A stretch of DNA of 44,910 nucleotides, from the IMG/VR virus record IMGVR_UViG_3300020596_000040, positions 1 to 44,910 of that record; one strand, written 5' to 3'. The notes under the pieces are model-generated. The model worked only from the letters and a program-made list of their open reading frames with translations, did not search any database and was not told where the DNA came from. Each line of letters opens with the position of its first letter. Positions within the stretch are counted from its first letter, which is position 1. Made by a program: the position numbers and the translations under genes. The DNA comes from a virus. Of this stretch, positions 2,988-37,595 are shown one piece after another.

Positions 2988-3246
2988 GCACGCGCTCCAT
3001 CAGCGCTTGCGCGCCTGCTATCCCGCCCCAATACAACCAGATCTGGCCGGGCGGGGCGACCGCCAACGCCAACGGCAACGCCAGCCAAACGCCGATGCAC
3101 AACGGGCAGCGCAGCCCGCGCCCGATCCAATCATCGGTCAGCCGCAGATTGCGGATGCGCGTACACAGATCAAACGGTCCATCTTCGTAGGCCGCCATAT
3201 GTGCCAATCGGGAGCAGGTCAGGATGGCGAGCAGCAGCGCTATCAT
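2977..3246 (-). CDS. small membrane protein, DUF1360-like
   Basis: 89 aa from the ATG at 3246, which overlaps the stop of the glycosyltransferase gene (ATGA). An N-terminal hydrophobic helix (MIALLLAILTCSRLAHM) is followed by a charged loop. Next come a CPLCIGVW motif inside a second hydrophobic segment and a third short hydrophobic segment. The CxxCxGxW signature in a small two-to-three-helix membrane protein matches the DUF1360 family, common in phage genomes near connector genes; its function is not established. A longer start at 3288 is possible but would overlap the upstream gene by 46 bases. Confidence 0.65.
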   Translation of the reverse strand: MIALLLAILTCSRLAHMAAYEDGPFDLCTRIRNLRLTDDWIGRGLRCPLCIGVWLALPLALAVAPPGQIWLYWGGIAGAQALMERVHAR

Positions 3247-5927
3247 CGTGGCCGCACCAGTGCAAACGTCCCGAGTGCCATCAACCACGGGACATCTTGC
3301 GCATCGGCCTGAAAAAACTTGTGAAACGGATTGTTTCCCACTCGATAGGTGCGGAGACTGGGCCGACCGAGCACCGAATGCTCGCCTTGCTGGTCGCCAA
3401 TGTAGGCCATCTCGACACTCCCGCTGCGCGGGAGGTTTTCGAGGCTGATTGGCGCATCCGGATGGGGTGGCGGTTGGGTGGCGTCAAATGCGCGCGCCAC
3501 GGGCAGCGCCATGCCGCCACAACATGATCCCTTGCGCGCCATGGTGTCCGCTCCTTTATAGCGTGTTGCCAGCAGTGCCCGGAGGTGATCGGCCTGCGCT
3601 TCGCCCGCGTTGCGGCGGGTGCCGGTGGTAATCCGGTAGTGCAGGATGGTGGCGGCAACCCGCGCCCCGAGATAGCCCTGATGGCAGAGTTTTAAGTAGA
3701 GATCGCCATCTTCCCACGCGATCAGCGTGGGATCAAACCCGCCACTTTCCAAAAACGCCTGACGCGCCACGAGCATGGTTACGGCCGGCAAGCCCAACGG
3801 CGCGCGCTGCCGCGCGCGCTCCAGCCAATGTTCGGCGCTAAACTCAGCAGCCGGGAGGTAATCGATGGGTTGATCCATCTTGTCGTCAACCACCGCGCAA
3901 TCGCCATACACAAACGCCACATCACCGACCGCGTAGCGCGTCAGTACCGTATACAGCGCGGTTGGGGTGAGCATGTCATCAGCATCCAAAAACAGCACCA
4001 ACGGCGCGCCGCTGTCCTGAGCGCCCCGATTGCGCGCGGCCCCGGCGCCAATCCGGTCGGTGGCGATGATGCGCGCCCACGCATGTCCGGGCAGCACCAA
4101 CGGCGCGCCGGTGTCGTTGATCACCACACACTCCCAGCGGTCAACGGTTTGCGCGATCAGGCTATCGAGTGCGTCAATCAGGCATGCGGCATGCCCCGGC
4201 CCGACCGGGATAATCACACTGACCGCGGGCTCCTGATGATGCGGCACCGGCCAGGCGCGGTTGCCGGGACTGCCCCCCGGCGCGGCAAACGGCACGCACC
4301 AGGGAATCGGCTGCTGCTGACGTTCCACCGCAACGACGCCACCGGGACCCGTGCCATCGCCAAGCGCCCACGGATAATCGCGGGTCCAATCACCGTCCCG
4401 ATCCGCATAGGCGCGGGCTTCTGTTTGGCTTTTGCTGTCCTGGCGCATGCGGTAGATCAGCGTGGCGTGATCGGTAACTTGTGCCGCGCGTAGTCCAAAC
4501 GACATGGCGCGTGTCCACAGGCTGGCATCCTCCGCACGCCAATGGCGTGCGCGATACCCGCCGGTGCGGTCAAACGCGCTTCGTCGCCAAAGCGCCGCAT
4601 AGTGCAACTGATTTAAGTGCGCAATCTGTTTGTACCACGCAATCCCATGCGGCCAGGGATTGCGGCGGGCATTGCGGCCATCCTCACCCACGATGTCCAG
4701 TGCGCCCGCCGCAATATGGAGATCGCGATGCGTATCGAGTGCCTCCGACAGCCGCGCCAACGCTCCCGGTGCGAGCATATCATCGGCATCCAAAAACAGC
4801 AGGTAGGTGCCGGTGGCCAGCGCGGCCCCGGCGTTGCGCGCGGCCGACAGCCCGCCCTGAATCGGCTGGCGATGCACCGAAACGGTTGGCCAATCGCGCA
4901 GCACATCCTGCGCAACTTGTTCGCCGCAATCGTCAACGACCAGCACCTCATCGGCTTGATCGACGGCGGACGCCACGGCGTCAGGGAGGTAGCGGTTCAA
5001 ATTGTGCGCGGTAATCACGACGCTTGTTCGTTTTCGCGGGGCGCGGTCAGCGGTCAGCATCCGCTGATACAGATCGGCATACTGCGCGATCCGTGGCCGC
5101 CACCCCCACCGGGCGATGGCGTCCGCGCGGGCATTGGCAGAGAGCCGCGCACGATCTGCGCGCGCGCGCTCAATTGCGGCGGCCAAGCCATCGTAATCCC
5201 CAAACTCCACCAGATAGCCGGTTTCGCCCTCTTGAATGATCTCCGGTTGTGCGCCAAACCGCCAGCCAACCACCGGCACGCCGCAGGCTAACGCCTCTAA
5301 GGTGCCAATGCCAAACGTCTCCCGCACGGTCGCCAAATACACGCCCGCTTGGGCGACCATGTGACGCATCTGCGCAACCGGGATCGCCCCCAGCAATTGG
5401 ATGTTGTCATGCGGTGCGCCGAACGTGGAGACAAACGGCACCGCGGGCAATCGGGTTGCGAGTTCACCAACCGCCTCCGGGTCGCTGACCGCATCCGCGC
5501 GCGCCTTATTCCACAACACATAGCCGCGTGTGTCTTCTGGCGTCCAGTCATCGCTCTCCACTCCATGATAAATCACCTCAGGATGCAGCAGACTGCCGCG
5601 CCGAATGGCATTTGCCACCCATTCTGAGGGTGCGGTCACAGCATCAGCCGTCAGCATGCGGTCAATCACGGATCGGTTTGCGCCATCGGCCCAGCGCGGC
5701 CACGCGTACTCGCGCCAATACAGGCCGTGATTGTGATTGACCATCGGACAATCGACCCGCGGCGGAATGAGCGTGCCATGCACCGCACACAGATCGGCCG
5801 ATTGCGGGTCGTTGACGATCTCGACGCCAAACTCGGGCAGATAGCGCACCAGCGCCTCCACCACACGCCGTATTCCGCCATCGGCCTGATCGGTGCCGGT
5901 ATACATCGGACTCATGTGGACGTTCAT
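3243..5927 (-). CDS. three-domain glycosyltransferase (GT4 + GT2 + GT2) with CCGG tail domain
   Basis: 894 aa from the ATG at 5927, which overlaps the methyltransferase stop (ATGA). Residues 1-295 are a GT-B, family-4-like transferase (GGIRRVVEAL; TFGIGTLEALACGVPVVG donor-site block). Residues about 300-520 are a GT-A family-2 domain (SVVITAHN, LLFLDADDM with the DxDD metal site). Residues about 590-795 are a second GT2 domain (SVIIPVGPG, LFLDADDM). The last 99 residues form a small separate domain beginning MARKGSCCGG. The enzyme would add up to three sugars in series to a phage or host acceptor. A perfect ribosome site at 3551-3558 lies in frame before the tail domain, so that domain may also be made alone. 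Neighbours are a methyltransferase, another GT2 and an epimerase. Confidence 0.85.
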   Translation of the reverse strand: MNVHMSPMYTGTDQADGGIRRVVEALVRYLPEFGVEIVNDPQSADLCAVHGTLIPPRVDCPMVNHNHGLYWREYAWPRWADGANRSVIDRMLTADAVTAPSEWVANAIRRGSLLHPEVIYHGVESDDWTPEDTRGYVLWNKARADAVSDPEAVGELATRLPAVPFVSTFGAPHDNIQLLGAIPVAQMRHMVAQAGVYLATVRETFGIGTLEALACGVPVVGWRFGAQPEIIQEGETGYLVEFGDYDGLAAAIERARADRARLSANARADAIARWGWRPRIAQYADLYQRMLTADRAPRKRTSVVITAHNLNRYLPDAVASAVDQADEVLVVDDCGEQVAQDVLRDWPTVSVHRQPIQGGLSAARNAGAALATGTYLLFLDADDMLAPGALARLSEALDTHRDLHIAAGALDIVGEDGRNARRNPWPHGIAWYKQIAHLNQLHYAALWRRSAFDRTGGYRARHWRAEDASLWTRAMSFGLRAAQVTDHATLIYRMRQDSKSQTEARAYADRDGDWTRDYPWALGDGTGPGGVVAVERQQQPIPWCVPFAAPGGSPGNRAWPVPHHQEPAVSVIIPVGPGHAACLIDALDSLIAQTVDRWECVVINDTGAPLVLPGHAWARIIATDRIGAGAARNRGAQDSGAPLVLFLDADDMLTPTALYTVLTRYAVGDVAFVYGDCAVVDDKMDQPIDYLPAAEFSAEHWLERARQRAPLGLPAVTMLVARQAFLESGGFDPTLIAWEDGDLYLKLCHQGYLGARVAATILHYRITTGTRRNAGEAQADHLRALLATRYKGADTMARKGSCCGGMALPVARAFDATQPPPHPDAPISLENLPRSGSVEMAYIGDQQGEHSVLGRPSLRTYRVGNNPFHKFFQADAQDVPWLMALGTFALVRPR
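3540..3558 (-). promoter_or_regulatory. internal ribosome site and ATG inside the glycosyltransferase gene
   Basis: The minus strand reads TAAAGGAG (3558-3551), eight bases, then ATG (3542-3540). This is the same AAAGGAG that precedes the tail tube gene. It is in frame with the glycosyltransferase and would give a 99-aa product starting MARKGSCCGG and ending at 3243. The preceding codons read CGC TAT AAA GGA, one base away from a TAA stop, so loss of an ancestral stop codon could have fused two genes. It may equally be functional dual initiation. Confidence 0.6.
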
Positions 5928-6499
5928 CGGTCGAACACCTGCACATTCGCGGCCAGCCAATGGCTGGATGGGCCGGTAACATAGCCGAAGAGGTGCGACA
6001 GTTGGCGCGTATCGTCCTCCCGATAGCTGATGCCGTACGCGGCAAACAGGCTGCGCCAATAGCTCGCCGGTTGACAGTTGATATGATGCTCGCCTGCTTG
6101 TCCTGGCGGCGCGGCGCTGAACACGATCCGTCCGCCCGTCCGCAGATGGCGCGCAAGGGAGGCAATCAACACGGGTGCGGCGTCCGCGGGGAGGTGTTCG
6201 GCCACTTCCACGCAGGTCATGAGTGCCACGGTCAGCTTGAGGTCAAGCGGCGTCGTCAGATCGTGCGTCACAAACCAATGCTCCGGTCCGTTGATCAGGT
6301 CAACGCCCCGTGCGTCAATGCCCATTTTGTGTGCCATGTTGACCATCGCGCCGGTGCCGCTGCCGACATCCAGGTACGATTCGGGCACACCTTGCCAGGC
6401 CACCAGCTGCGCAAACGCACGCTCATTCCACCCGTCAAACGGCGCAAGTTCCGCGCGGCGGCGAGCAATGTCGGTTGGCGACGGCGCACCGTAACTCAC
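5924..6499 (-). CDS. SAM-dependent class I methyltransferase
   Basis: 191 aa from a GTG at 6499, which overlaps the upstream stop (GTGA). Motif I is YLDVGSGTGAM. The acidic loop after strand 2 is GVDL, and CVEVAEHLPAD is the motif IV/post-I region of the Methyltransf_11/23 group. GGRIVFSAAPPG follows, and the HHIN stretch after it is common in sugar or lipid O-methyltransferases. In a glycosylation cassette it most likely methylates a sugar or capping group. A start further upstream would lie inside the previous gene and lacks support. Confidence 0.78.
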   Translation of the reverse strand: MSYGAPSPTDIARRRAELAPFDGWNERAFAQLVAWQGVPESYLDVGSGTGAMVNMAHKMGIDARGVDLINGPEHWFVTHDLTTPLDLKLTVALMTCVEVAEHLPADAAPVLIASLARHLRTGGRIVFSAAPPGQAGEHHINCQPASYWRSLFAAYGISYREDDTRQLSHLFGYVTGPSSHWLAANVQVFDR

Positions 6500-7170
6500 A
6501 GCAGTGTCTCCGTCTTGACCGTGCCAATATGCGCAAACGGTCCCCATTCGGGCAAAGAGGCCGGCCAGACGACCCACGGCGCGCCGGTATTGCGCGTGCG
6601 GTACCGATAGGCATAGGCCAGTTCGGTGTCGCCCGGTCCGAGGTTGTCGGGATACCAGCCGTAGGCATCGCGGTAGCGGGTGTGGCGCAGCGAGGGATGC
6701 CCGGTGAAGACCAATTCGTTGCGCTCGGCCGGCTCGTGATACAGCCGCCAGTACAAGCGATTGGCGGCGGCAACCGTTGACCCGACAATGCCACGATTGA
6801 GATAGCCCAAGCGCACCATGCCGATCTCCGGATCGTCCAGCGCCTGCGCGTAGGACGTGAGGTCAAACGGCGCGCGAAGTTCCCAATCATCTTCCAGCCA
6901 AAACGTGAGCGGGCTGATCGCATCAGCAGCTCCCCACGCGGCATTGGCGTTGGCTCCGTAGCCGCGCCGTTCGCGGTGGGAGCCGATCACGATCTGATCA
7001 TCCAGCGCGGTCAGGAGCGCGTCAACGTGATCGCGTGGACTGCCATCATCCGCAACGTACCAGGCCAGGTCTCCGGCATAGCGGAGATACTGGCGTGCGG
7101 CGGCAATCGTGGCCAACGCGGTCTCGGTGCGCTTAAACGTTTGGAGGATAAGCACAATTGGCAGTGTCAT
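6496..7170 (-). CDS. GT-A (family 2-like) glycosyltransferase
   Basis: 224 aa, overlapping the epimerase stop by ATGA. The start PIVLILQTFKRTETALATI matches the GT2 opening strand; WYVADDGSP is the nucleotide-binding acidic turn. FWLEDDWEL is the DxD-like metal site, here EDD. A C-terminal tryptophan-rich stretch follows (YGWYPDNLGPGDTE). It is shorter than typical bacterial GT2 enzymes (250-330 aa), as is common for phage cassette members. The donor sugar cannot be inferred. Confidence 0.78.
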   Translation of the reverse strand: MTLPIVLILQTFKRTETALATIAAARQYLRYAGDLAWYVADDGSPRDHVDALLTALDDQIVIGSHRERRGYGANANAAWGAADAISPLTFWLEDDWELRAPFDLTSYAQALDDPEIGMVRLGYLNRGIVGSTVAAANRLYWRLYHEPAERNELVFTGHPSLRHTRYRDAYGWYPDNLGPGDTELAYAYRYRTRNTGAPWVVWPASLPEWGPFAHIGTVKTETLL

Positions 7171-8078
7171 CCGCCTGCCTCCAATCGCTCGGCGTCCTGA
7201 ACCATCGCCAGAAATGCATCCGCACGCAACGGGGGGCAGGTGTTGCTCGCATACGTGTGATCCCGCGTGCCCGATGATCGCACAATGAAATGATCGGGCG
7301 TTTCGTCCGCCGGTTCATCGCTCGCCACCAACTCCTCGTGCAACTTCTCGGTACTGCGCAGCCCGCATTCGCGGAGCGTGGCACCAGGACAGATCAGCTC
7401 GGCCATGCGCGCAATCGGCAAGCTGCCCATTTTGGGGATCCACACCTCGCCATCCTGCCCCGCGCTGGCCTGCACAATCAGGCGTACGGCGTCGGCAGGG
7501 CTCATCCAAAAACGCGTCATCCGCATGTCGGTAATCGTCAAATGTTGGCCACGGTGGTGTTGCGCGCGCCAAATGGGGATGACTGATCCATTTGAGGCGA
7601 CCACATTGCCATAGCGCACGGCGACAAAGCGGGTGGCACTCGGCGGCTGCTGCCGCCAGATGGCCTCCATCATCAGTTTCGAGGCGCCATAGGCGGTTGC
7701 CGCGCGACAGGCCTTGTCGGTTCCAATCGCCAACGCCAAGGCGACGCCATGCGCGCGGCAGGCGTCGGCAACATGCGCCGATCCCAGGACATTCGTGGCG
7801 ATACACTCCATCGGCTGCTGCTCACATTCCGGGATACGTTTCATCGCGGCCGTATGGATGACGGTCGTATGGCCCGCAACGGCGGCATGCACGGCAATCC
7901 GGTCGCGCACATCGCCGCAGATGGTGCGCACCTGCCATGCGCGGCGGGTGGTCGCAAGTCGGCTCTCGTTGCGGCTCAAGATAGTAAACGTTGCGGGCCA
8001 GTGGTCGTCGCGTGCCTGCCGCAAGATCGCGTGCGTCAACGTGCCATTGCCCGTGATCAAGATGGACCCGGTGAGCAT
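7167..8078 (-). CDS. NAD-dependent sugar epimerase/dehydratase (CapD/FlaA1-like)
   Basis: 303 aa from the ATG at 8078, preceded by GGAG five bases upstream. The N-terminus has a Rossmann loop (SILITGNGTLT), followed by GDVRD and a catalytic YGASK (Tyr130, Lys134). AAMKRIPECEQQP, NVLGS, GTDKA and VRYGNV are all typical of the extended short-chain group acting on UDP-GlcNAc (4,6-dehydratase or 4-epimerase). The usual STDK is GTDK here. It probably supplies an activated sugar to the following transferases. An ATG at 8093 is an alternative with a weaker ribosome site. Confidence 0.82.
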   Translation of the reverse strand: MLTGSILITGNGTLTHAILRQARDDHWPATFTILSRNESRLATTRRAWQVRTICGDVRDRIAVHAAVAGHTTVIHTAAMKRIPECEQQPMECIATNVLGSAHVADACRAHGVALALAIGTDKACRAATAYGASKLMMEAIWRQQPPSATRFVAVRYGNVVASNGSVIPIWRAQHHRGQHLTITDMRMTRFWMSPADAVRLIVQASAGQDGEVWIPKMGSLPIARMAELICPGATLRECGLRSTEKLHEELVASDEPADETPDHFIVRSSGTRDHTYASNTCPPLRADAFLAMVQDAERLEAGG

Positions 8079-8168
8079 GAGCGCTCCGTTCATCCAGTTC
8101 CGGCGGGATCGTGCGGAGCAGCACCCGGAGATATGCTGTTCAGGAGCGACCCTAGCTCCGCACGGTCG

Positions 8169-8189
8169 AAAAACCACCCCAGCCTGGTT
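8169..8189 (-). terminator. weak hairpin with T-run after the capsid gene
   Basis: On the minus strand, overlapping the capsid stop codon, AACCA pairs with TGGTT around an 8-base loop and runs into a row of T residues (8173-8169). A five-pair stem is short, so it may only attenuate transcription into the glycosylation genes. Confidence 0.3.
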
Positions 8190-9678
8190 ATGAGGTTGGC
8201 GTATAGTACGAGGGACCGTAGCCGTTGTAACTCGTTTGTCCGCCGTTGACGTAGTAGGTACCGCTGGTGTTCCAGTCGCGCTCGTGCGAGATTGGCGTAT
8301 AGCGTATCGTCGTGTAGCGCGCCGCCAAATACGGCGTGCGCAGGACAATGCGCGGCTCCGTCTTGGCTAGGAATTGCACACAAAAGTTTGTTGGTGGCTT
8401 AAAGTGCCACGCGAACCGTCCGTTGTCGGATGTGTTGTAGTACGCCCCGACGTTGAATGCCGCAGCGGCCTCCATAAACGAGTGATCGCCGGTGTACGGC
8501 AGGTATTCAAGGCTCGTGACTTCGCTGCCGTTGGCGGTCAATGGCACAAAATACATGCCGCTGGAATAGGTGCCGCTGCCCACGTTGGTCTCGGCAATCG
8601 CATCATCCAGCACCACTTCTACCTGTTGCCCATCAATCATGAGATACTGACCGGTATATCCATAGTAGTCACCACGCATGTCATCGCGCATTTTGTTGAG
8701 CGACTCGAACGACGAGCTGATCGGCGTCCCCGCGCTGGTAAAGGCCAGACCCCGCGTTGTCGCATAGGCAATCGGCCAGATCTCGGTCAACTCGTAAAAC
8801 AGGGTCGCCCGCATCGCGATGACCCATTTGACCTGCGCAAAGCCCATCGAGCGGGCGTTGAACTGCAACTGCCGAAAAATATCGGTGATGTTGCGGTAGA
8901 TCGTGCGCGCGCCGTTGGTGTCACTCGACACGTTGATGTTTCCCGCGCTGCGCACCAGCGAGTCAGCGGCAGCACAGGCCACCCCCGTGATTGCGTCTTT
9001 GTACCCGGTGTTGATCAACAGGTCAAAGCCCCGAAAAAACTTGCGGCCACCGGCTGGGGAGTTGCTGGTCGGGTTGCCGGTATAGACCTCGGCGGCAAAG
9101 TCGCGACTCCACGCCGTGCCAAACTCGAACAACGCCTTACCCACTTCCGTGTTCAGCGCCGCGTTGGCCCCCATGCCGGGGATCGTGGGGACGTTGGTGC
9201 CGGTACCCGCAACGCTCAGCGGGTTGTTCATCATTTGGAAGTCGGTATGCTCGCCGCGATGCGTGAGCAACCCCATGCGATCCAGATCGAACACCCGAGT
9301 CATGCGGCTCTGGCGCCCAAAATAGACGGTTTGCTCACACAGCTTCATCAGCCCGGCCACCGGCGGATCGTCACAGGGGCCCATTGTGGCTTCTGCCGGG
9401 CTTGCCGTATCGCTGGTGGCCGTAACCCCCGTCACGATGCCATACAGCGGATTGGCAAAGCGATTCTCATGCACCGGCAGGCGACTGAGCAGGCCCTGCC
9501 GCGGAAGCATGAGCGCACTAAACAGCGGTCGCTCAAGCGCAGGATCGGAAAACAGGCCACCGGGGCCATGCCCGTAGGTCAGCGTGCCGGTGGTTGAGGG
9601 AAGTGCCTTGGTGGTCATGAAATGCGCCAGCACAATTTGCTGGGCGGCGGCAAGTGCCGCAGGCGAAATGTCCGTCAT
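8188..9678 (-). CDS. major capsid protein
   Basis: 496 aa, ATGA overlap with the protease/scaffold gene, the standard order. The protein has a long amphipathic N-terminal helix region (PAALAAAQQIVLAHFMTTK). Its central alpha/beta region has GVACAAADSLVRSAGNINV and FAQVKWVIAMRATLFYEL, and a late region FCVQFLAKTEPRIVLRTPYLAARYTTIRY ends in a Gly/Tyr-rich C-terminus. Length, composition and position fit an HK97-fold capsid protein, but no short diagnostic motif exists; the call rests mainly on synteny. Confidence 0.75.
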   Translation of the reverse strand: MTDISPAALAAAQQIVLAHFMTTKALPSTTGTLTYGHGPGGLFSDPALERPLFSALMLPRQGLLSRLPVHENRFANPLYGIVTGVTATSDTASPAEATMGPCDDPPVAGLMKLCEQTVYFGRQSRMTRVFDLDRMGLLTHRGEHTDFQMMNNPLSVAGTGTNVPTIPGMGANAALNTEVGKALFEFGTAWSRDFAAEVYTGNPTSNSPAGGRKFFRGFDLLINTGYKDAITGVACAAADSLVRSAGNINVSSDTNGARTIYRNITDIFRQLQFNARSMGFAQVKWVIAMRATLFYELTEIWPIAYATTRGLAFTSAGTPISSSFESLNKMRDDMRGDYYGYTGQYLMIDGQQVEVVLDDAIAETNVGSGTYSSGMYFVPLTANGSEVTSLEYLPYTGDHSFMEAAAAFNVGAYYNTSDNGRFAWHFKPPTNFCVQFLAKTEPRIVLRTPYLAARYTTIRYTPISHERDWNTSGTYYVNGGQTSYNGYGPSYYTPTS

Positions 9679-22216: not shown

Positions 22217-23017
22217 CTAGGTCATGCAATAGCCGGTCTCGCAGCTATCTTCAAAATCAAATTCATGTTGTGTGCCTTGCACCGCCTCCTCGAGTGGGAT
22301 GAGGGCGCGGGTTAAATAAAGAGCATCGTCGCGAGTTGCTGCCACATCTAACAAGCGTTTTTCAAGCGCAACCGCATGTGCGAATAACTGCGGTTCATGC
22401 TCCTTGAGATCGCGCCAGTGTCGCATGCTTTGGTACGGACAAAAATAACACGCGCTTTTTGCGGGAATCGGCAGCCCTGCATGTGCGATAATTGCCCGGC
22501 AATCAGTCCGCGTAAGTCGTAAGTCAATGAGGGGATATTCAACCCGTTGCCACGCGATACCACTATCAAGCCGCATACGCTGATACTCATCAATCGAAAT
22601 ACCGAGTCCTGCTATGGCGGGATCATCAGCCGTTGCGCCGCGCCGCTTTTGCTCGGCGGCGATGATTTTAATTTTGAAATCGCTGGTGCAACTGCGGTTG
22701 CCGGGCGCGCCACTCTTCGCGAAATAGGCGGGAATGACCTGTGACCGATTGTTCATCACGCGACTGTAGATTGTTTCTACCTCCCCCGCCCGACTTCCGC
22801 GCTTCATTCTTTTTTGCAACTCCCGAATCTCAATGCCATTGGCCGCTGCATACGGCATTGCCACATCACGCACATACGCCAGTGTCGCGGGATGCTCACT
22901 GTCATCGCCAACGTTGGCAAACAGAAACAGCGGATAGTCAATCTTGCCTTGCGCGGCAAGTACCAGCGCCGCCGTGGACTGCACACCGCCGCCGTAGCTA
23001 AATACACGAATCGTCAT
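22217..23017 (-). CDS. PAPS reductase-like PP-loop protein
   Basis: 266 aa from the ATG at 23017 (ATGA overlap). The PP-loop is SYGGGVQSTA (SxGxxS). Downstream cysteine motifs are RSCTSDFKI and ACYFCPYQS, the pattern of phage members of the PAPS reductase/DndC/QueC-like adenylation family. Such proteins activate a substrate with ATP and may hold an iron-sulfur cluster. In phages a role in nucleotide or nucleic-acid sulfur modification is suspected but not shown. Neighbours are zinc-ribbon and nuclease genes; no Dnd partners are seen. The C-terminus ends in ETGYCMT. Confidence 0.82.
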   Translation of the reverse strand: MTIRVFSYGGGVQSTAALVLAAQGKIDYPLFLFANVGDDSEHPATLAYVRDVAMPYAAANGIEIRELQKRMKRGSRAGEVETIYSRVMNNRSQVIPAYFAKSGAPGNRSCTSDFKIKIIAAEQKRRGATADDPAIAGLGISIDEYQRMRLDSGIAWQRVEYPLIDLRLTRTDCRAIIAHAGLPIPAKSACYFCPYQSMRHWRDLKEHEPQLFAHAVALEKRLLDVAATRDDALYLTRALIPLEEAVQGTQHEFDFEDSCETGYCMT

Positions 23018-23283
23018 CGCCGTATCTCCCATCCGGTATCCGTCTCCACCAGTCGCCCGGCCAGCCGCGCCAATCGCACGGTTTCCGGTGCCTTGCCAAT
23101 CAGCTTCGCAATCGTGCGGTTGCTGGTTGGTTTCGGCTTCGACCCGCGCACCTGCACCGGGTAGGCAGCGCGATGATCGCGCCAACAGACGCTCCACAGG
23201 CCGCGCCCGACAATGCGACGGCGACGGTTGCCGTGCAGGCAGCGCGTGCGGGGATGGTTGGTCAGCGGTGTGTGGTTCATCAT
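23014..23283 (-). CDS. basic HTH-like small protein
   Basis: 89 aa. The first half is very basic (RCLHGNRRRRIVGRGLW). The second half has a helix-turn-helix-like segment (NRTIAKLIGKAPETVRLARLAGRLVET). The start ATG at 23283 overlaps the previous stop, and another ATG follows immediately at 23280. Probably DNA-binding; function unknown. Confidence 0.55.
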   Translation of the reverse strand: MMNHTPLTNHPRTRCLHGNRRRRIVGRGLWSVCWRDHRAAYPVQVRGSKPKPTSNRTIAKLIGKAPETVRLARLAGRLVETDTGWEIRR

Positions 23284-23594
23284 TGGAGCGCCCCCGCGCG
23301 TTGTTTTCGGCGATACCACACGGCCCGACTGGCACATGTCTTGCTGCAATAGACACAGTGCGACTGCCGTTTGGTGAGGCACGCGGCACACCATGCACAG
23401 CGCACGTTCGCGGGGATGGCACGCGGCGTGTTGTAGGTGCCCGCGCTGCGCACCTCCAGCGTAAATACGCGCGCGCTGCGGGTCAGGCGGCCATCATGTA
23501 TGGCGGTGTACAGCGTGCGTTGCGATACGCCAAAGGCGGCAGCAATCGTCCGCATGGACGTCTTGTAGGCCGGACGCGGGATCGTCAGGATCAT
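23280..23594 (-). CDS. HTH protein with C-terminal zinc ribbon
   Basis: 104 aa. Residues 12-40 form a helix-turn-helix (MRTIAAAFGVSQRTLYTAIHDGRL). Residues about 65-95 carry CAWCAAC and CVYCSKTC, a four-cysteine zinc ribbon. It ends in AGALQ, the same ending as 24228-24668, encoded by an identical stretch of about 20 bp. Likely a small transcription or recombination regulator. Confidence 0.62.
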   Translation of the reverse strand: MILTIPRPAYKTSMRTIAAAFGVSQRTLYTAIHDGRLTRSARVFTLEVRSAGTYNTPRAIPANVRCAWCAACLTKRQSHCVYCSKTCASRAVWYRRKQRAGALQ

Positions 23595-28708: not shown

Positions 28709-28737
28709 TTGACAAAAAAGCAAGAATGTGCTACACT
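28709..28737 (+). promoter_or_regulatory. rightward consensus promoter
   Basis: TTGACA (28709-28714), 17 bases ending in TGTGC, TACACT (28732-28737). It drives the plus-strand unit beginning with the XRE gene at 28772. With the leftward promoter it forms a divergent pair whose -35 boxes are 25 bases apart. Confidence 0.85.
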
Positions 28738-28771
28738 TGCAACCACATGAAGGCAAGAGAAGGAGCGAGTC

Positions 28772-29044
28772 GTGGTCGTGTCGAGTCATTTACGTATCCT
28801 TGTGGCGCACAAGGAGCTCAAGGAAAAGCGGCGTATCGGCATCCGCGTTATTGTGGCGGAGACCGGAGCCGCGCGCAGTTCCGTGCAGCGCTTGCTGAAC
28901 AACACCATCCGCGAGGTTCCGCTGGCGGCGCTGGCGGCGCTGTGTGCCTGGGTGCCGTGCGCACCAGGCGACATGCTGCGCCTCGACCCGCTGCCCGATT
29001 CCGCTGGCCCGATTCCGCTCATCGCTCGGCAGGCGCGCACATGA
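28772..29044 (+). CDS. Cro/C1-type small regulator
   Basis: 90 aa from a GTG at 28772 with AAGGAG eight bases upstream (GTG at 28778 also possible). Residues 5-65 fit a small XRE/Cro fold: LRILVAHKELKEKRRIGIRVIVAETGAARSSVQRLLNN, then LAALAALCAWV and GDML. The last 25 residues (from LDPLPDSAGP) come from a 52-bp repeat that is also in 29430-29615. As first gene of the rightward unit, opposite the leftward unit, it is a candidate Cro-like counterpart of the regulator at 27491-27784. Confidence 0.75.
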   Translation: MVVSSHLRILVAHKELKEKRRIGIRVIVAETGAARSSVQRLLNNTIREVPLAALAALCAWVPCAPGDMLRLDPLPDSAGPIPLIARQART

Positions 29045-29567
29045 GCGCGCAGCAGCAGAAAGGTCACCGCACCCGGCGCACCCGGCGCGAACCGATGAAA
29101 CAAACCATCAGCATGACGGACATCGTCCGCCAGGTGGCTGGCATTGCCGTGTCGCCATGTCCATTTTGTGGACAATCCGCCGAACTGCGGCGCACGCGGA
29201 ATCGGTGGTATGTTGACTGCGATCCGGTGTGCGGCGCGTGTGGGCCAGCAGCCGATACGCCAGAGCAGGCCGCGCAGCGGTGGAATGCGCGAGGTGAGTC
29301 CCTGGAGTTGCACGAGGTGTATGAGCAGCTCACAAAAACAACCGACGCACTCGCGGCGTACCGGATCATGATCGTCGCGACACTGCGGCAGATTGCCGAC
29401 GCCGTTGCAACGGACGAGCAGGAGGTGCCATGACCAGTGCCTCTACCTATCTCAAATCGATCACGGACGCGGCCAGCTGGGCGCACTTCCTGGCACTCCG
29501 GCAACAGGAGCAGCGCGACCCGCTGCCCGATTCCGCTGGCCCGATTCCGCTCATCGCTCGGCAGGCG
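28984..29567. repeat. 52-bp exact direct repeat
   Basis: 28984-29035 and 29516-29567 are identical. Both encode DPLPDSAGPIPLIARQA in frame, at the C-terminus of one gene and within the next but one. It marks a duplicated linker between genes. Confidence 0.95.
29041..29433 (+). CDS. Lar-like restriction alleviation zinc-ribbon protein
   Basis: 130 aa, ATGA overlap with the regulator. SPCPFCGQSAELRR, then WYVDCDPVCGACGPAADTPEQAAQRWNAR matches the Lar family (CPFCG..., CG.CGP.A.t...A...WN.R). Lar family members modulate type I restriction; many phage copies are of unproven activity. The extra C-terminal helical part (EVYEQLTKTTDALAAYRIMI) is not part of the core. Confidence 0.82.
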   Translation: MSAQQQKGHRTRRTRREPMKQTISMTDIVRQVAGIAVSPCPFCGQSAELRRTRNRWYVDCDPVCGACGPAADTPEQAAQRWNARGESLELHEVYEQLTKTTDALAAYRIMIVATLRQIADAVATDEQEVP

Positions 29568-32343: not shown

Positions 32344-32388
32344 TTGTGCTGTCTGCGAAAACTGGTGGCAAACTGGGCAGATTGGGGC

Positions 32389-32416
32389 TTGACACACCAG
32401 ATATATCTGGTATAAT
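32389..32416 (+). promoter_or_regulatory. promoter with 16-bp palindromic operator, copy 1
   Basis: TTGACA (32389-32394), 16 bases, TATAAT (32411-32416). The spacer and first -10 base form the perfect palindrome ACCAGATATATCTGGT (32396-32411). A dimeric repressor seated here would block polymerase. Copy 2 is at 34488. Confidence 0.88.
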
Positions 32417-32456
32417 ACGAGTAAGAAGCAAGATACAGACAGAAAGGCACCACCCA

Positions 32457-32774: not shown

Positions 32775-33122
32775 ATGACAAAGACCATGACAACCGCGGC
32801 GCGGGCGGCGCGGGCGACGGCGACATTCGCAGCCGACACGTTATACGCCGAGAGGGCCGCGATCCTCCTCGTCGCGGCGAAAGCAAGATACGACTCGGCG
32901 CGGGCGGCGAAAGCGGAAGCGGACGCCGCGTACGACTCGGCGCGGGAGGCGTACGCGAAAGCGGACGCACGCCACGCAGTCGAGATAGCGGGCTACGAGG
33001 AGGACTCGGCGCGGGAGGCGTACATGGAGGCCCGCGTCGCAGTTGACCAAACTGCGGATGCGGTCCTCGCGGCGTCTGCGGCGAAGGCCGCCGCCGCTGC
33101 GGCAGCGAGGACACGACCATGA
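32775..33122 (+). CDS. Ala-rich helical protein A1
   Basis: 115 aa, about 40 percent alanine with regular Arg/Glu/Asp/Tyr. Units such as KARYDSARAAKAEADAAYDSAREAYAKADA predict one continuous helix or coiled coil. The start MTKTMTTAARAARATA is shared with 34555-34830. ATGA-coupled to the next gene. The role is unknown; such proteins could be structural rods, nucleic-acid-binding, or DNA-mimicking. Confidence 0.5.
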   Translation: MTKTMTTAARAARATATFAADTLYAERAAILLVAAKARYDSARAAKAEADAAYDSAREAYAKADARHAVEIAGYEEDSAREAYMEARVAVDQTADAVLAASAAKAAAAAAARTRP

Positions 33123-33445
33123 TGACCATAACCACACGAACCGCCGCCGCCGCGTTGGCGGTGGCGAAGGCCACAACCGCGGCGGCAAACCGCGCAGCGG
33201 AGGCGCGATACCGCGCAGCGGAGGAGGCCGCGCTCACGCGGGAGGCCGCGTATGCGGCGTTGGCGAAGGCGGATGCAGCGGAGGCGCGATACCGCGCCGC
33301 ATACGCGGCAGAGGCGAAAGCGGACGCGGACGCAGACGCCGCGAAGGCCGCGTATGCGTCCGCGTATGCGGCGAAGGCGAAGGCGAAGGCCGCTGCGAAT
33401 GTCGCAGCGGCGAAGGCGGCTGCGGCCAGGAAGGACAGAGCATGA
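33119..33445 (+). CDS. Ala-rich helical protein A2
   Basis: 108 aa of the same composition, with tandem units AAEARYRAAEEAALTREAA and AAEARYRAAYAAEAKADAD. A more basic C-terminus (AAKAAAARKDRA). The 24-bp repeat 33099-33122 supplies its ribosome site and start, as at 32755-32778 for A1. ATGA-coupled on both sides. Confidence 0.5.
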   Translation: MMTITTRTAAAALAVAKATTAAANRAAEARYRAAEEAALTREAAYAALAKADAAEARYRAAYAAEAKADADADAAKAAYASAYAAKAKAKAAANVAAAKAAAARKDRA

Positions 33446-33708
33446 CGACCAGGGTGGCGGCGGCGGCGGTGGCGCGGGCGCGGGCGGCGTATGCGGAAGC
33501 GTCGGAGGACTCCGAGTCGGATGCCGCCGCGATTGCATACGCCGCCGCGATTGCGGCGGCGGATGCCGCGGAGGCGGAGTGGGAGGAGGTGGAGTCCGCG
33601 TGGGATGCGGCGGACTCCGCAGATGCGGCCAGGAAGGCCGCGTATGCGAAGTCAAAACTACCGCAGCGTATGCGGCGAAGGGGAGGGAAGCATGTACACC
33701 ATTCCTGA
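33442..33708 (+). CDS. Ala-rich helical protein A3
   Basis: 88 aa. It begins TTRVAAAAVARARAAYAEA, then the acidic SEDSESDAAA (also in 33692-34165), AEAEWEEVESAWDAADSA, and a basic tail. The 3' end overlaps the next start by 17 bases. Same family as A1 and A2 by composition. Confidence 0.48.
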   Translation: MTTRVAAAAVARARAAYAEASEDSESDAAAIAYAAAIAAADAAEAEWEEVESAWDAADSADAARKAAYAKSKLPQRMRRRGGKHVHHS

Positions 33709-34165
33709 CCCCGTGCTGGCAAAGATCGCCCGCCAGCACCCGCAATTAGTTGTGCTGATTGCTGATCTTCGCCAGGCGACCGAAGACGAAACGGTTGCGC
33801 AGCTGGAGCGCACGATCAGCTCAAGCGCGCTTGCGGGGAATACGGGCAAACTGAGCGGGATGGAGGTTTGGAACCTGGCGCAATGCGCCGCTGGGGGACC
33901 GTACCGTGGCGGCTGGTGGACGACCACCCGGGCCGCCATCGAGAGTGGCTACGACGCGAGCCACCTGGCGCGCCTGATCCGTGCGGGCAGCTTGCGCGCG
34001 GTGAAGCGCGGCAAGACGTGGTATGTCGCGCGAGCGGAGCTCGCGTCGTATGCGGCGGCGGCGTCGGTGGCGGATGCGGTGGCGCGGGCGGCGGATGCGG
34101 CAGCGTCGGAGGACTCCGAGTCGGATGCCGCTGCGGCTGCCGCATCCGCCGCCGAACGGACGTAA
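33692..34165 (+). CDS. HTH protein with Ala-rich tail
   Basis: 157 aa from the ATG at 33692 with GGGAGG upstream. Residues about 80-120 (SGYDASHLARLIRAGSLRAVKRGKTWYVARAEL) are a clear excisionase/MerR-like HTH_17 domain. The preceding part is helical. The tail from about 122 (SVADAVARAADAAASEDSESDAAAA) is Ala-rich and shares DNA with A3. It could be the regulator acting on the palindromic operators, or an excisionase; this is inference. Confidence 0.65.
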   Translation: MYTIPDPVLAKIARQHPQLVVLIADLRQATEDETVAQLERTISSSALAGNTGKLSGMEVWNLAQCAAGGPYRGGWWTTTRAAIESGYDASHLARLIRAGSLRAVKRGKTWYVARAELASYAAAASVADAVARAADAAASEDSESDAAAAAASAAERT

Positions 34166-34213
34166 CGAGCCCAGCTCGATCCCAGCGCGCCGTCAAAAAA
34201 CGAAAGCGAGCCA

Positions 34214-34429
34214 ATGAAACTCACCAAAGCACAGGCGAACATGATCGCGTTCATCGCGCGCTGTGGGGGCGAAGTCCTCATATCCACGCCAGGACTGCAT
34301 GTGGCGACACTTCGCGCGCTCTATGCGCGCGAGCTCATCTCCTTTGGTGGCCTCGAGCCGATCCGTCATCCTGACGGTCGGATGTACATGACCCCGACCG
34401 TCATTGCCCTCAACTACCAGGACAAATAA
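34214..34429 (+). CDS. winged-helix-like 71-aa protein
   Basis: MKLTKAQANMIAFIARCGGEVLIS, then VATLRALYARELISFGG then a beta hairpin (GRMYMTPTVIALN) reads as a small winged helix in which the second helix would contact DNA. Not placed in a family. Followed 58 bases later by operator-promoter 2. Confidence 0.58.
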   Translation: MKLTKAQANMIAFIARCGGEVLISTPGLHVATLRALYARELISFGGLEPIRHPDGRMYMTPTVIALNYQDK

Positions 34430-34487
34430 GGACGTAACGCCCCCAGCTGCCCCCAGCGCGCCGTCAAAACGGGGGGCAGATTGGGGC

Positions 34488-34515
34488 TTGACATACCAGA
34501 TATATCTGGTATAAT
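34488..34515 (+). promoter_or_regulatory. promoter with 16-bp palindromic operator, copy 2
   Basis: TTGACA (34488-34493), 16 bases, TATAAT (34510-34515), palindrome ACCAGATATATCTGGT at 34495-34510. Identical to copy 1 over more than 40 bases apart from one base between TTGACA and the palindrome. Confidence 0.88.
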
Positions 34516-34554
34516 ACTATCAAGAAGCAAGAAAAGAAGAAAGCGAGCCACCCA

Positions 34555-34830
34555 ATGACAAAGACCATGACAAAAACCGCAGCGGCGCGCGCGACGGCGG
34601 AGGCGGCATTCGACGCCGCAATCGCGGCGGAAGCAAGATACGTCGCGGCGAGCGACGCATATGCCGCAGCTGAGGAAGCGGATGATGCGGAGGAGATGAC
34701 ATACGCGGCGGCGTCAGTGGCGTTCGCGGCTGAGGAAGCGGACACATACGCGTTCGCGTATGCGGACGCGCGCGCCGCAGTTGCGGCAGCCGCGCCGCAG
34801 AAGCGGCGGAAGCAAGATACGCGTCTTTGA
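34555..34830 (+). CDS. Ala-rich helical protein A4, paralogue of A1
   Basis: 91 aa. The start MTKTMTKTAAARATAEAAF matches A1. Composition is acidic: EEADDAEEMTYAAAS, EEADTYAFAYADARAAV, ending in a basic tail (PQKRRKQDTRL). First gene of operator-promoter 2, with the same upstream CCACCCAATGAC as the gene after promoter 1. Confidence 0.5.
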   Translation: MTKTMTKTAAARATAEAAFDAAIAAEARYVAASDAYAAAEEADDAEEMTYAAASVAFAAEEADTYAFAYADARAAVAAAAPQKRRKQDTRL

Positions 34831-34933
34831 CGCAGTACTGCGCGTAGAGGCGCTTGACAGCAGCTGACGCCGCCGCGATTGTGCGGCAGCGTCGCACCGA
34901 CAAAGGCCGCAGATGCGGCCAGAAAGGCACCCA

Positions 34934-35374
34934 ATGACAACCGAAACTGCAACCAAATGGACTGCGGAGGCCGCGACCAACAAGACCGCCACGTATGTGG
35001 CGTGGATCATCGCCTGCCGCGGCGGCAACGCCGAGCAGGAGGCCGCGGCCTATGCGGAGGCGTGCGCCGCTGCTGCGGCGTATGAGGCCGTGTCGGAGGC
35101 GCATGCCTCAGACATCGAAGTCATCGTAAAGGCGGCAGAAGCAGTGTACAACACTGCTTGGGACCTGGCGGTGTTGGGCGCGGGGAGCGCGTTTGACGCA
35201 GAAGCGGTGGAAGACGCCGCTTGGTACCTGGCGGTGTCGGGCGAGGGAAGTACGTTATTTGCCGCCTGGGAGGCGGTGGAGGCGGCGCGCGAGGCGCGCG
35301 ATGCGCACTATGCGGCGTATGAGGCACATGCGGGCCGAGTTGGGTATCGCCCAAGCGGCAGCGGACTGGAGTGA
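34934..35374 (+). CDS. Ala-rich helical protein A5
   Basis: 146 aa, AGAAAGG upstream. Less repetitive than A1-A4 and includes Trp and Cys: TAEAATNKTATYVAWIIACRGGNAEQEAAAYAEACAAA, and two copies of a (W)(D/Y)LAV(L/S)G(A/E)G motif in the middle. The ending is basic. The Trp-containing repeats hint at a folded helical bundle. The 103-base gap before it contains small GC hairpins only. Confidence 0.5.
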   Translation: MTTETATKWTAEAATNKTATYVAWIIACRGGNAEQEAAAYAEACAAAAAYEAVSEAHASDIEVIVKAAEAVYNTAWDLAVLGAGSAFDAEAVEDAAWYLAVSGEGSTLFAAWEAVEAAREARDAHYAAYEAHAGRVGYRPSGSGLE

Positions 35375-35537
35375 GCGCGTTCACGCGCTCACTCCGTCTG
35401 CCGCGATTGCGTTGGTCGCGGACGCGGCAGGCGTCCGCGGAACGATACGCGTCTTTGACGGGCACACGCAAGGCGATTTTTATCGCTGGCCTGCCACGGT
35501 CGGCGATCACGACGCTGCCGTGGAGGAAGCGCGGTGA
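35328..35537 (+). CDS. 69-aa protein at the duplication edge
   Basis: Starts inside the 3' end of A5 (GAGG upstream of the ATG) in another frame. MRAELGIAQAAADWSERV then LVADAAGVRGTIRVFDGHTQGDFYRWPATV gives a plausible small alpha/beta protein. The last 14 codons lie in the 229-bp repeat; a degraded copy of its 3' end is at 37017-37089. Confidence 0.5.
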   Translation: MRAELGIAQAAADWSERVHALTPSAAIALVADAAGVRGTIRVFDGHTQGDFYRWPATVGDHDAAVEEAR

Positions 35538-35538
35538 T

Positions 35539-35586
35539 CGCCCCCACGCCCCGGATCTCGTTGCTGAGATCCGGGGCGTGGGGGCG
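35539..35586. terminator. 21-bp perfect hairpin, repeat copy A
   Basis: Arms 35539-35559 and 35566-35586 with a 6-base loop. No T-run on either side. It stands just after the 69-aa gene on the plus strand. Confidence 0.6.
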
Positions 35587-35587
35587 T

Positions 35588-35723
35588 CTACGGGGTCTCC
35601 GTATGGTCGGCGATCACCGCGCTGGCCCAATCGGGCATGGCGTGTGGCCGCGGGCTGTCCAGCGACTCAATTTTGGCAATCACGCGCTTGACGATCTCGC
35701 GATCATCGTGCTTGCGCCTGCCA
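35588..35723 (-). pseudogene. 3' fragment of the membrane gene 37140-37595
   Basis: Encodes the last 45 or so residues of the intact gene (GRRKHDDREIVKRVIAKIES and so on to HTETP) with the same stop, but no related 5' part. A longer frame reads through from unrelated sequence. It arose with the 229-bp duplication. Confidence 0.8.
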
Positions 35724-35773: not shown

Positions 35774-35950
35774 ATGCGGGATTTCACGGTCTACATCTGG
35801 CGTCCGCGCCGCGTGGGGGATGCGGACGGCAATCTGAAAAGCACGGTGAAGGGTATCAAAGGCAAGGAGTGCAGACACGGAGATTACCACCAGCCATATT
35901 CTGGAAGCCGTGCCAAGTGTGACAAGCAGACAACAGGAGAGCATGCATGA
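35774..35950 (+). CDS. 58-aa protein coupled to the first pentapeptide gene
   Basis: ATG at 35774; stop overlaps the next ATG (ATGA). MRDFTVYIWRPRRVGDADG then KSTVKGIKGKECRHGDYH is basic with a few Cys/His. Its 3' end carries the ribosome site of the pentapeptide gene. Unknown function. The 50 bases before it come from the Ala-rich gene region. Confidence 0.48.
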   Translation: MRDFTVYIWRPRRVGDADGNLKSTVKGIKGKECRHGDYHQPYSGSRAKCDKQTTGEHA

Positions 35951-36474
35951 GTATCACCATCACTTCATGGAAAGACGGCAGTATTCTTTTTACTGCCGAG
36001 GTTGAAAACCTGTACGGCGCGAACCTGTACGGCGCGAACCTGTACGGCGCGAACCTGGAAGGCGCGAACCTGGAAGGCGCGAACCTGGAAGGCGCGAACC
36101 TGCGTAGCGCGGACCTGGAAGGCGTGAACCTGGAAGGCGCGAACCTGGAAGGCGCGAACCTGTACGGCGCGGACCTGTACGGCGCGAACCTGCGTCGCGC
36201 GAACCTGTACGGCGCGGACCTGTACGGCGCGAACCTGTACGGCGCGAACCTGGAAGGCGCGACAGGTGGAGTTAGCACCATCACTGGACTGACGTGGTTT
36301 GTGTGTATCTACGATGATCGCATGGCGATTGGGTGCCAGAACCACGCGATTGAGGAATGGCGTGTGTTTGATGATGATCGTATTCGCGCAATGGATCCGC
36401 GCGCGCTGAAGTTCTGGGAGTCCTGGAAAGATCCGCTCCTGGTGAGGGCTGATGCACGCAAGTCGAACACGTAA
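35947..36474 (+). CDS. pentapeptide-repeat protein 1
   Basis: 175 aa. N-terminal cap [19 protein letters not shown], then about 18 consecutive pentapeptides A(N/D)LxG of the type [15 protein letters not shown] (residues 21-105). A C-terminal domain follows: [17 protein letters not shown], then [13 protein letters not shown] and [10 protein letters not shown]. Pentapeptides form a right-handed quadrilateral beta-helix that can mimic DNA, as in gyrase-protecting Qnr proteins. Phage versions with this C-terminal domain are known but not understood. It is duplicated immediately downstream. Confidence 0.88.
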
Positions 36475-36554
36475 TGCTATTGGCAACGTTGCCACACTCG
36501 CACTTTTGTCGGGGCATGGATAGTGTGACAAGCAGACAACAGGAGAGCATAATC

Positions 36555-37019
36555 ATGAGTATCACCATCACTTCATGGAAAGACGGCAGTATTCTTTTTA
36601 CTGCCGAGGTTGAAAACCTGTACGGCGCGAACCTGTACGGCGCGTACCTGCGTAGCGCGGACCTGTACGGCGCGGACCTGTACGGCGCGAACCTGTACGG
36701 CGCGAACCTGCGTAGCGCGAACCTGGACGGCGCGAACCTGCGTAGCGCGAACCTGGAAGGCGCGAACCTGGAAGGCGCGACAGGTGGAGTTAGCACCATC
36801 ACTGGACTGACGTGGTTTGTGTGTATCTACGATGATCGCATGGCGATTGGGTGCGAGAACCACGCGATTGAGGAATGGCGTGTGTTTGATGATGATCGTA
36901 TTCGCGCAATGGATCCGCGCGCGCTGAAGTTCTGGAAGGTTTGGAAATATAAGCTCATGGTGAGGGCTGAAGAAACCCGCGAGAGCGAGCCAGTTCACCA
37001 GAAGGTCAGTACGCGATGA
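36555..37019 (+). CDS. pentapeptide-repeat protein 2 (tandem paralogue)
   Basis: 154 aa. Same cap and C-terminal domain as protein 1, almost unchanged, but about 12 pentapeptides and a different final 20 residues ([19 protein letters not shown]). Shares about 28 bp upstream including AGGAGA. The copies differ mainly by gain or loss of 15-bp units. Confidence 0.88.
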
Positions 37020-37089
37020 ACGATACGCGTCTTTGACGGCGGGCAACACGGTCGGCGCTCACGACGCTGCCGTGGAGGAAGCGCGGTGA
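37017..37089 (+). pseudogene. degraded 3' end of the 69-aa gene
   Basis: The sequence ACGATACGCGTCTTTGACGG, then CGGTCGGCG...GTGGAGGAAGCGCGGTGA repeats the end of 35328-35537 with a deletion in the middle and no start region. It marks the second copy of the duplicated segment. Confidence 0.6.
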
Positions 37090-37094
37090 TCGCC

Positions 37095-37130
37095 CACACG
37101 CCCCGGATCTCGTTGCTGAGATCCGGGGCG
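37095..37130. terminator. 15-bp hairpin between convergent units, repeat copy B
   Basis: Arms 37095-37109/37116-37130, loop of six. It lies 10 bases after the stop of the minus-strand membrane gene and about 75 bases after the last plus-strand gene, the right place for a two-way terminator although without T-runs. Confidence 0.6.
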
Positions 37131-37139
37131 TGGCTGCGT

Positions 37140-37595
37140 CTACGGGGTCTCCGTATGGTCGGCGATCACCGCGCTGGCCCAATCGGGCATGGCGTGTGGC
37201 CGCGGGCTGTCCAGCGACTCAATTTTGGCAATCACGCGCTTGACGATCTCGCGATCATCGTGCTTGCGCCTGCCATAGGAGTTGCCATCCGGCAGCAGCA
37301 CCGCCGCACGCGCAAGCTCTGAAGCGGTCATGCCAAGCGGATCTTTGAGCAGTGACTCGTCCGATGTGCGCATGAGGCGCGGCGTGAGCACGTCGGGATC
37401 GATCCCACGCGGACGCCGCGTGTTGGTCACCAGCAGCATCCCCAACGCTGCCAGAAACACGCCGATCTGCACGACGACGGCCAGGAGCAGCCAGGTGATG
37501 TCCACCAGGTGCGCCACGAAAAAGAGCAGCACGCCGAGACTCAGCAGCCAGGCGAATCCAAGGACAACGGTGGTGCGCAGCACTGATGGATGCAT
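37140..37595 (-). CDS. two-helix membrane protein, last gene of the leftward unit
   Basis: 151 aa from the ATG at 37595 with GGAGGAG upstream. Two transmembrane helices (VLGFAWLLSLGVLLFFVAHL and ITWLLLAVVVQIGVFLAALGMLLV), then a charged cytoplasmic part with DPLGMTASELARAAVLL and IVKRVIAKIES. Its last third is duplicated at 35588-35723. Could be a holin or superinfection factor; not assignable. Confidence 0.6.
   Translation of the reverse strand: MHPSVLRTTVVLGFAWLLSLGVLLFFVAHLVDITWLLLAVVVQIGVFLAALGMLLVTNTRRPRGIDPDVLTPRLMRTSDESLLKDPLGMTASELARAAVLLPDGNSYGRRKHDDREIVKRVIAKIESLDSPRPHAMPDWASAVIADHTETP

Follow-up and report, generated by a model that had tools for sequence, protein, structure and literature searches.

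The question raised by this locus is whether a row of small, alanine-rich open reading frames in a phage genome is a set of working genes and, if so, what kind of genes these might be. The window, that is, the whole 44,910-bp stretch analysed, is an IMG/VR virus record of a tailed phage, whose minus strand carries the terminase, tape-measure and tail genes and whose plus strand carries an accessory block. Its closest terminase relative is 60% identical over 207 aa (L016/G001) and the best terminase match in a cellular genome, at 53%, lies in a Chloroflexaceae MAG; the helix-turn-helix (HTH) of the HTH protein encoded in the block is similar to the one at the C-terminus of Fic-like proteins from Chloroflexales. 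Judging by these two resemblances, the host is probably a member of the Chloroflexota. The minus-strand region also carries genes for a PAPS-reductase-like protein (22217-23422), a glycosyltransferase (3243-6059) and a nucleotide-sugar epimerase (7167-8348).

The initial annotation placed five alanine-rich genes (A1 to A5 in Table 1) at 32775-35374, and all of these ORFs are present as placed. They fall into two apparent units, the first containing P0009, A1, A2, A3, the HTH gene and P0003, and the second A4, A5 and a small ORF, ending in a hairpin that is terminator-like but has no clear T run. The proposal of a twin operator is borne out: each unit starts with a sigma-70-type promoter, TTGACA-16-TATAAT, with the palindrome CCAGATATATCTGG in its spacer (cores at 32389-32416 and 34488-34515), the two promoter regions are 93% identical over 59 nt, and no further site within 3 mismatches was found in the 44,910-bp record, with 0 expected by chance. 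The genes had also been described as interleaved with HTH genes, which is supported for one gene, whose product resembles Pfam HTH_17 (E 1.5e-5, 25.6 bits, against a gathering cut-off of 27); the second small gene, P0003, possibly for a DNA-binding protein, matched no family in Pfam or PHROGs; P0009 likewise had no significant family match in profile searches. In the first unit the gene pairs A1/A2 and A2/A3 have 4 nt (ATGA) in common and A3 overlaps the HTH gene by 17, with ribosome-binding-like sites (GAGGA and GGAAGG) upstream of the A2 and A3 starts, within the last codons of the preceding gene; the same TGCGGCAGCGAGGACACGACC leader precedes A1 and A2. A4 and A5 stand separately. A segment running from GGACGTAACG to CCCAGCGCGCCGTCAAAA is repeated in the intergenic DNA before P0003 (34157-34200) and before the second promoter (34432-34470).

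Table 1. Features of the accessory block, by position in the window, and the comparable arrays of other phages
Feature	Position	Strand	Length (aa)	Ala (%)	Net charge	Remarks
Promoter/operator unit 1	32375-32433	+				TTGACA-16-TATAAT, palindrome in spacer, 12/12 consensus
P0009	32457-32711	+	84			first gene of unit 1; codon usage z 3.4
A1	32775-33122	+	115	39	0	Tyr-heptad; predicted helical hairpin (helices 7-62 and 66-113)
A2	33119-33445	+	108	51	+7	Lys-rich C-terminus; ATGA overlap with A1
A3	33442-33708	+	88	36	-2	aromatic spacing 14, 7, 14 like A1; ATGA overlap with A2
HTH protein	33692-34165	+				MerR/excisionase-like HTH_17, Ala-rich C-terminal tail
Ala-rich tail of HTH protein	34052-34162	+				21-nt periodic; block in common with A3 (33453-33548)
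P0003	34214-34429	+	71			possible DNA-binding protein; codon usage z 3.2
Promoter/operator unit 2	34474-34532	+				TTGACA-16-TATAAT, palindrome in spacer
A4	34555-34830	+	91	41	-5	heptad protein; MTKTM start like A1
A5	34934-35374	+	146	30	-14	Ala/Trp-rich, helical; internal 63-nt duplication
Small ORF	35328-35537	+		24 (35331-35534)		overlaps end of A5
Hairpin	35539-35586	+				perfect 21-bp stem closing unit 2, z -7.5; copy at 37091-37133
L259 array			61, 97, 83		-12, -8, -16	overlaps 8 nt; between DNA polymerase and exonuclease genes, directly upstream of exonuclease
L246 array			76, 71, 58			overlaps 8 and 4; upstream of exonuclease and DNA polymerase
L238/L249 array			97, 131, 147			spaced, no overlap; among head genes, beside XRE repressor-like gene
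L273 array			88, 61, 65, 66			three overlaps of exactly 4 nt

The proteins had been credited with up to 40 percent alanine; they are indeed alanine-rich, with a range of 30-51% and a higher ceiling in A2. More telling is the placing of their aromatic residues. Pairs of aromatics 7, 14 or 21 residues apart number 19 in A1-A4, against an expected 3.8+-1.8, and 0 of 4000 shuffles reached 19. The cores of A1, A3 and A4 carry aromatics in heptad register, at 39, 53, 60 and 74 in A1 (with His at 67) and at 33, 47, 54 and 68 in A3; taken gene by gene, the test is significant for A1 and A3, not for A4 or A2 (A2 p 0.19), and weak for A5. The heptad positions are coded by TAC, TAT, TGG and TTC, with Tyr, Trp and Phe exchanging there, and such a mixture of codons points to a constraint at the level of the protein. 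Codon usage supports coding for A5 (z 3.7), the body of the HTH gene, P0003 and P0009 (z 3.2-4.7 overall), while A1-A4, at z 0.8-1.5, are near what their composition predicts.

That the members are related, and were copied and recombined through short repeats, is also supported: A1 and A4 both begin MTKTM as described, a 96-nt stretch of A3 (33453-33548) has 82% identity to the tail of the HTH gene (34057-34152), and 121 of 137 pairs of repeated 12-mers lie in the same codon phase, a count that is inflated by GCN composition. The tandem repeats consist of 42-nt units in A1 and of 21-nt units in A2, A3 and the HTH tail, so that one heptad equals one 21-nt unit. Alignment of A1-A5 members with one another gives z of 0.5-5.1, weaker than in the arrays of other phages described below.

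A scan for the Tyr/Ala heptad pattern returned at least 120 loci, and among these we found tandem arrays of small Ala-rich paralogues in four further, unrelated phage lineages (IMG/VR contigs; Table 1), a set that the scan pattern biases toward heptads but not toward tandem overlap. They resemble A1-A5 in being small (58-147 aa), with aromatics at multiples of 7 and mostly with overlapping starts and stops and embedded ribosome-binding sites; they differ in their genomic contexts, and apart from the heptad pattern no homology between them and A1-A5 was detected. Paralogues within L259, L246 and L273 align with z of 7-14, and in these three the last codons of each gene encode the ribosome-binding-like site of the next, which may explain why their termini are conserved and their cores variable; in three of the four other arrays the termini are more strongly conserved than in A1-A5. 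The same composition filter applied to 137 terminase-kin loci (1.63 Mb) as controls gave 7 ORFs and no cluster. The L238 and L249 contigs, from different metagenomes, are 99.84% identical over 7,633 nt, and all 3 mismatches and the sole indel (9 nt) lie in frame inside a heptad gene, in a single case near a contig end where assembly error is possible. We define the class here as at least two adjacent, same-strand, Ala-rich paralogous ORFs with aromatics at multiples of 7, a description that fits the A1-A5 cluster (A2 and A5 are weak alone); the further character of an overlapping start and stop with an embedded ribosome-binding site is present in A1/A2 and A2/A3. The contig with the four-gene array, L273, also encodes an Ala-tailed phage protein of phrog_3416 (395-1153, minus strand). 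A single Ala/Tyr heptad protein with 25% Ala lies between phage genes on L274 (820-1155), a contig of 46% GC, so the type is not confined to high-GC phages.

The existence of paralogues here and of analogous arrays in other phages favours genuine reading frames. A low-complexity artefact or noncoding repeat was judged unlikely in view of the heptad register, the overlaps, the promoters and the recurrence elsewhere; as for an RNA gene, there is no Rfam match in the 44,910-bp record.

Searches for relatives of the cluster were uniformly empty. Neither A1-A5 nor the promoter unit has a detectable homologue in IMG/VR, in 50,697 phage records or in 82 Chloroflexales genomes (the queries, all of them empty, were A1, A2, A4, A5, the HTH protein, the operator and the tail protein), and the cluster is absent from the nearest terminase kin (L016/G001) and from 40 stretches of kin records; no relative carrying it was found. 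A single empty search with a low-complexity protein means little, such searches being weak, but here several agree. Among named families, the best matches of A1-A5 lie far below cut-off in PHROGs (E 0.018, phrog_7933 to A5) and NCBIfam (E 0.025), and there is no family match in Pfam, Imm5-like families included. PDB sequence searches with A2, A5 and the HTH protein gave nothing, and a scan for the motif AEARYxAA gave only scaffold-like proteins or generic coiled coils. The initial annotation knew of no named phage system of this form; we too found none, in the literature on alanine-rich phage paralogue arrays or otherwise, but the form is not unique, given the analogous arrays in unrelated phages. 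With similar rows in unrelated phages and no match to a named family, this kind of accessory array appears to us unnamed and fast-changing.

The products had been taken for single-helix proteins, and here the models suggest otherwise: A1, modelled by AlphaFold with A1-A4 aligned, comes out as two helices joined in a hairpin, and the family has the appearance of heptad-repeat coiled coils. The best of five models has a pLDDT of 88.5 and a pTM of 0.71, and is the only confident one (the remaining four score 60-71), so that the A1 hairpin is a good but not certain prediction. Foldseek matched the A1 model only to generic coiled-coil hairpins (colicin, AcrA, tape measure), none at E<=1e-3, and the fold is therefore uninformative on the function of A1. 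A5, modelled alone, gave a model too poor to use.

Several known groups resemble the array proteins in part. Phage proteins of the Imm5_like (PF21805) and Imm5 (PF14423) kind with AAYAAD tails have a similar-looking Ala/Tyr-rich repeat segment, and Imm5-like proteins with Ala/Tyr tails are also among the heptad-scan loci; the matching Imm5-like proteins, however, have an N-terminal domain (below gathering score) that A1-A5 lack, and A1-A5 show no match to PF21805 or PF14423 at E<=1, and so are not members. Alanine-zipper or Ala-coil coiled coils (e.g. PF11839) have Ala-rich heptads in common with the array proteins; one L259 protein matches PF11839 weakly (E 0.043), and A1-A5 do not match it in the Pfam search. 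Nearer at hand, pentapeptide-repeat proteins (PF00805; 35947-37019) likewise grew by in-frame repetition of short units in the same region, but they form a beta-helix from 15-nt units, not a coiled coil. There are two of these genes, adjoining one another (35947-36474 and 36474-37019) and with a non-repeat C-terminal domain in common, and they are bracketed by a 106-bp direct repeat, 96% identical between its copies (35495-35600 and 37047-37152), each copy containing a highly stable GC hairpin. Proteins of this repeat class can act as DNA mimics. A Lar-like restriction alleviation protein (phrog_599; 28726-29433) is encoded upstream of the array on the same strand.

The reading that we prefer, at about an even chance, is that the locus is a two-operon accessory cluster of tandem, paralogous, Ala-rich coiled-coil mini-proteins, grown by turnover of heptads and cassettes and binding other proteins; the presence of the Lar-like and pentapeptide genes on the array's strand is consistent with such an accessory cluster. 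Growth would proceed by duplication of gene cassettes and by in-frame expansion, contraction and recombination of 21-nt heptad units, with core length and surface shifting quickly and the starts and ribosome-binding sites being kept. A single repressor acting at CCAGATATATCTGG could switch both units together. The hairpins would bind other proteins through their helical surfaces, host factors being the likeliest partners (for takeover or counter-defence), and the array proteins may in addition pair through zipper contacts with the HTH protein's similar tail and thereby modulate that protein; the most likely order of targets is the host first and the HTH partner second. Weighing on the other side are the empty homologue searches, the codon usage of A1-A4, the antisense frame that is also mostly open and 7-periodic, the lack of heptad register in A2 by itself, the single confident model of A1 and the looser paralogy of A1-A5.

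The alternative that survives best, unlikely but deserving of weight, is that these are near-neutral coding repeats, GC-rich 21-nt units that lengthen through slippage where an accessory region tolerates it and that stay open by chance, with products that, if made, do little. The orphan status of A1-A5, the composition-like codon usage of A1-A4 and the neighbouring pentapeptide genes, themselves built of short (15-nt) repeats, all suit such a history. It does not readily accommodate the exchange of Tyr, Trp and Phe at the same heptad position, the ATGA overlaps with embedded ribosome-binding sites behind strong promoters, or the finding that unrelated phages carry whole arrays of this kind whose termini are conserved.

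Next, and also unlikely in our estimation, is that the A proteins are internal regulators of the phage, which would join the HTH protein's Ala-rich tail in heteromeric coiled coils and in this way tune how that protein binds the twin operators. Downstream of A1-A3, in what appears to be one operon with them, comes the HTH gene, which has a block in common with A3, and an HTH gene, matching phage repressor families, adjoins the L238 array and possibly the L246 array as well; on the other hand, L259 has no adjoining HTH, operator binding by the HTH protein is only putative, and we know of no established pairing of a MerR-like HTH with a 14-bp palindrome.

Mimicry of nucleic acids, which the initial annotation had suggested among other functions, we find improbable as a general account. 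The L259 array, acidic throughout, lies directly upstream of an exonuclease gene, an arrangement that we take to be comparable with the T7 gene order. A5 is also acidic, and alone among A1-A5 strongly so; with A1 neutral and A2 at +7, the charges fit a mimic poorly overall. Neither A2 nor A5 has a sequence match to any solved DNA mimic in the PDB. The model for such a function would be T7 gp5.9, a strongly acidic parallel coiled-coil dimer that acts as a DNA mimic on RecBCD (PMC9836394), and by analogy acidic coiled coils might occupy the DNA-binding sites of host nucleases. Like the array proteins gp5.9 is a small coiled-coil phage protein, but it is the acidic product of a single gene, whereas A1-A3 lack such acidity and the model of A1 is a two-helix hairpin; mimicry as practised by gp5.9 would be a fit for L259, possibly also for A5, and not for A1-A3.

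That the opposite strand codes, the Ala/Ser/Phe-rich antisense frames being the genes and the sense frames their mirror images, is very improbable: antisense frame -1 does show a period of 7 (31 vs 13.4) and is interrupted by a single stop across A1-A4, but its enrichment is 2.3-fold against about 5-fold for the sense strand, the consensus promoters and overlapping starts belong to the sense strand and are absent from the antisense Ala/Ser frame, and the codon usage of A5, the HTH body, P0009, P0003 and the pentapeptide gene is clearly sense.

Returning to the accessory cluster of coiled-coil mini-proteins, a broader and more doubtful proposition is that unrelated phages keep such arrays as a generator of diversity, in which cassette duplication and in-frame 21-nt turnover would yield new helical binding surfaces against changing host targets, making the arrays an undescribed class of counter-defence or takeover genes. 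Should the arrays prove functional, the low-complexity phage ORFs commonly dropped in annotation would be a recognisable and recurring gene type, with its own mode of growth and diversification, and a source of candidate host-targeting proteins beyond the reach of sequence search alone. The combined signature of heptads, overlaps and embedded ribosome-binding sites offers a concrete way to locate such arrays in other phages.
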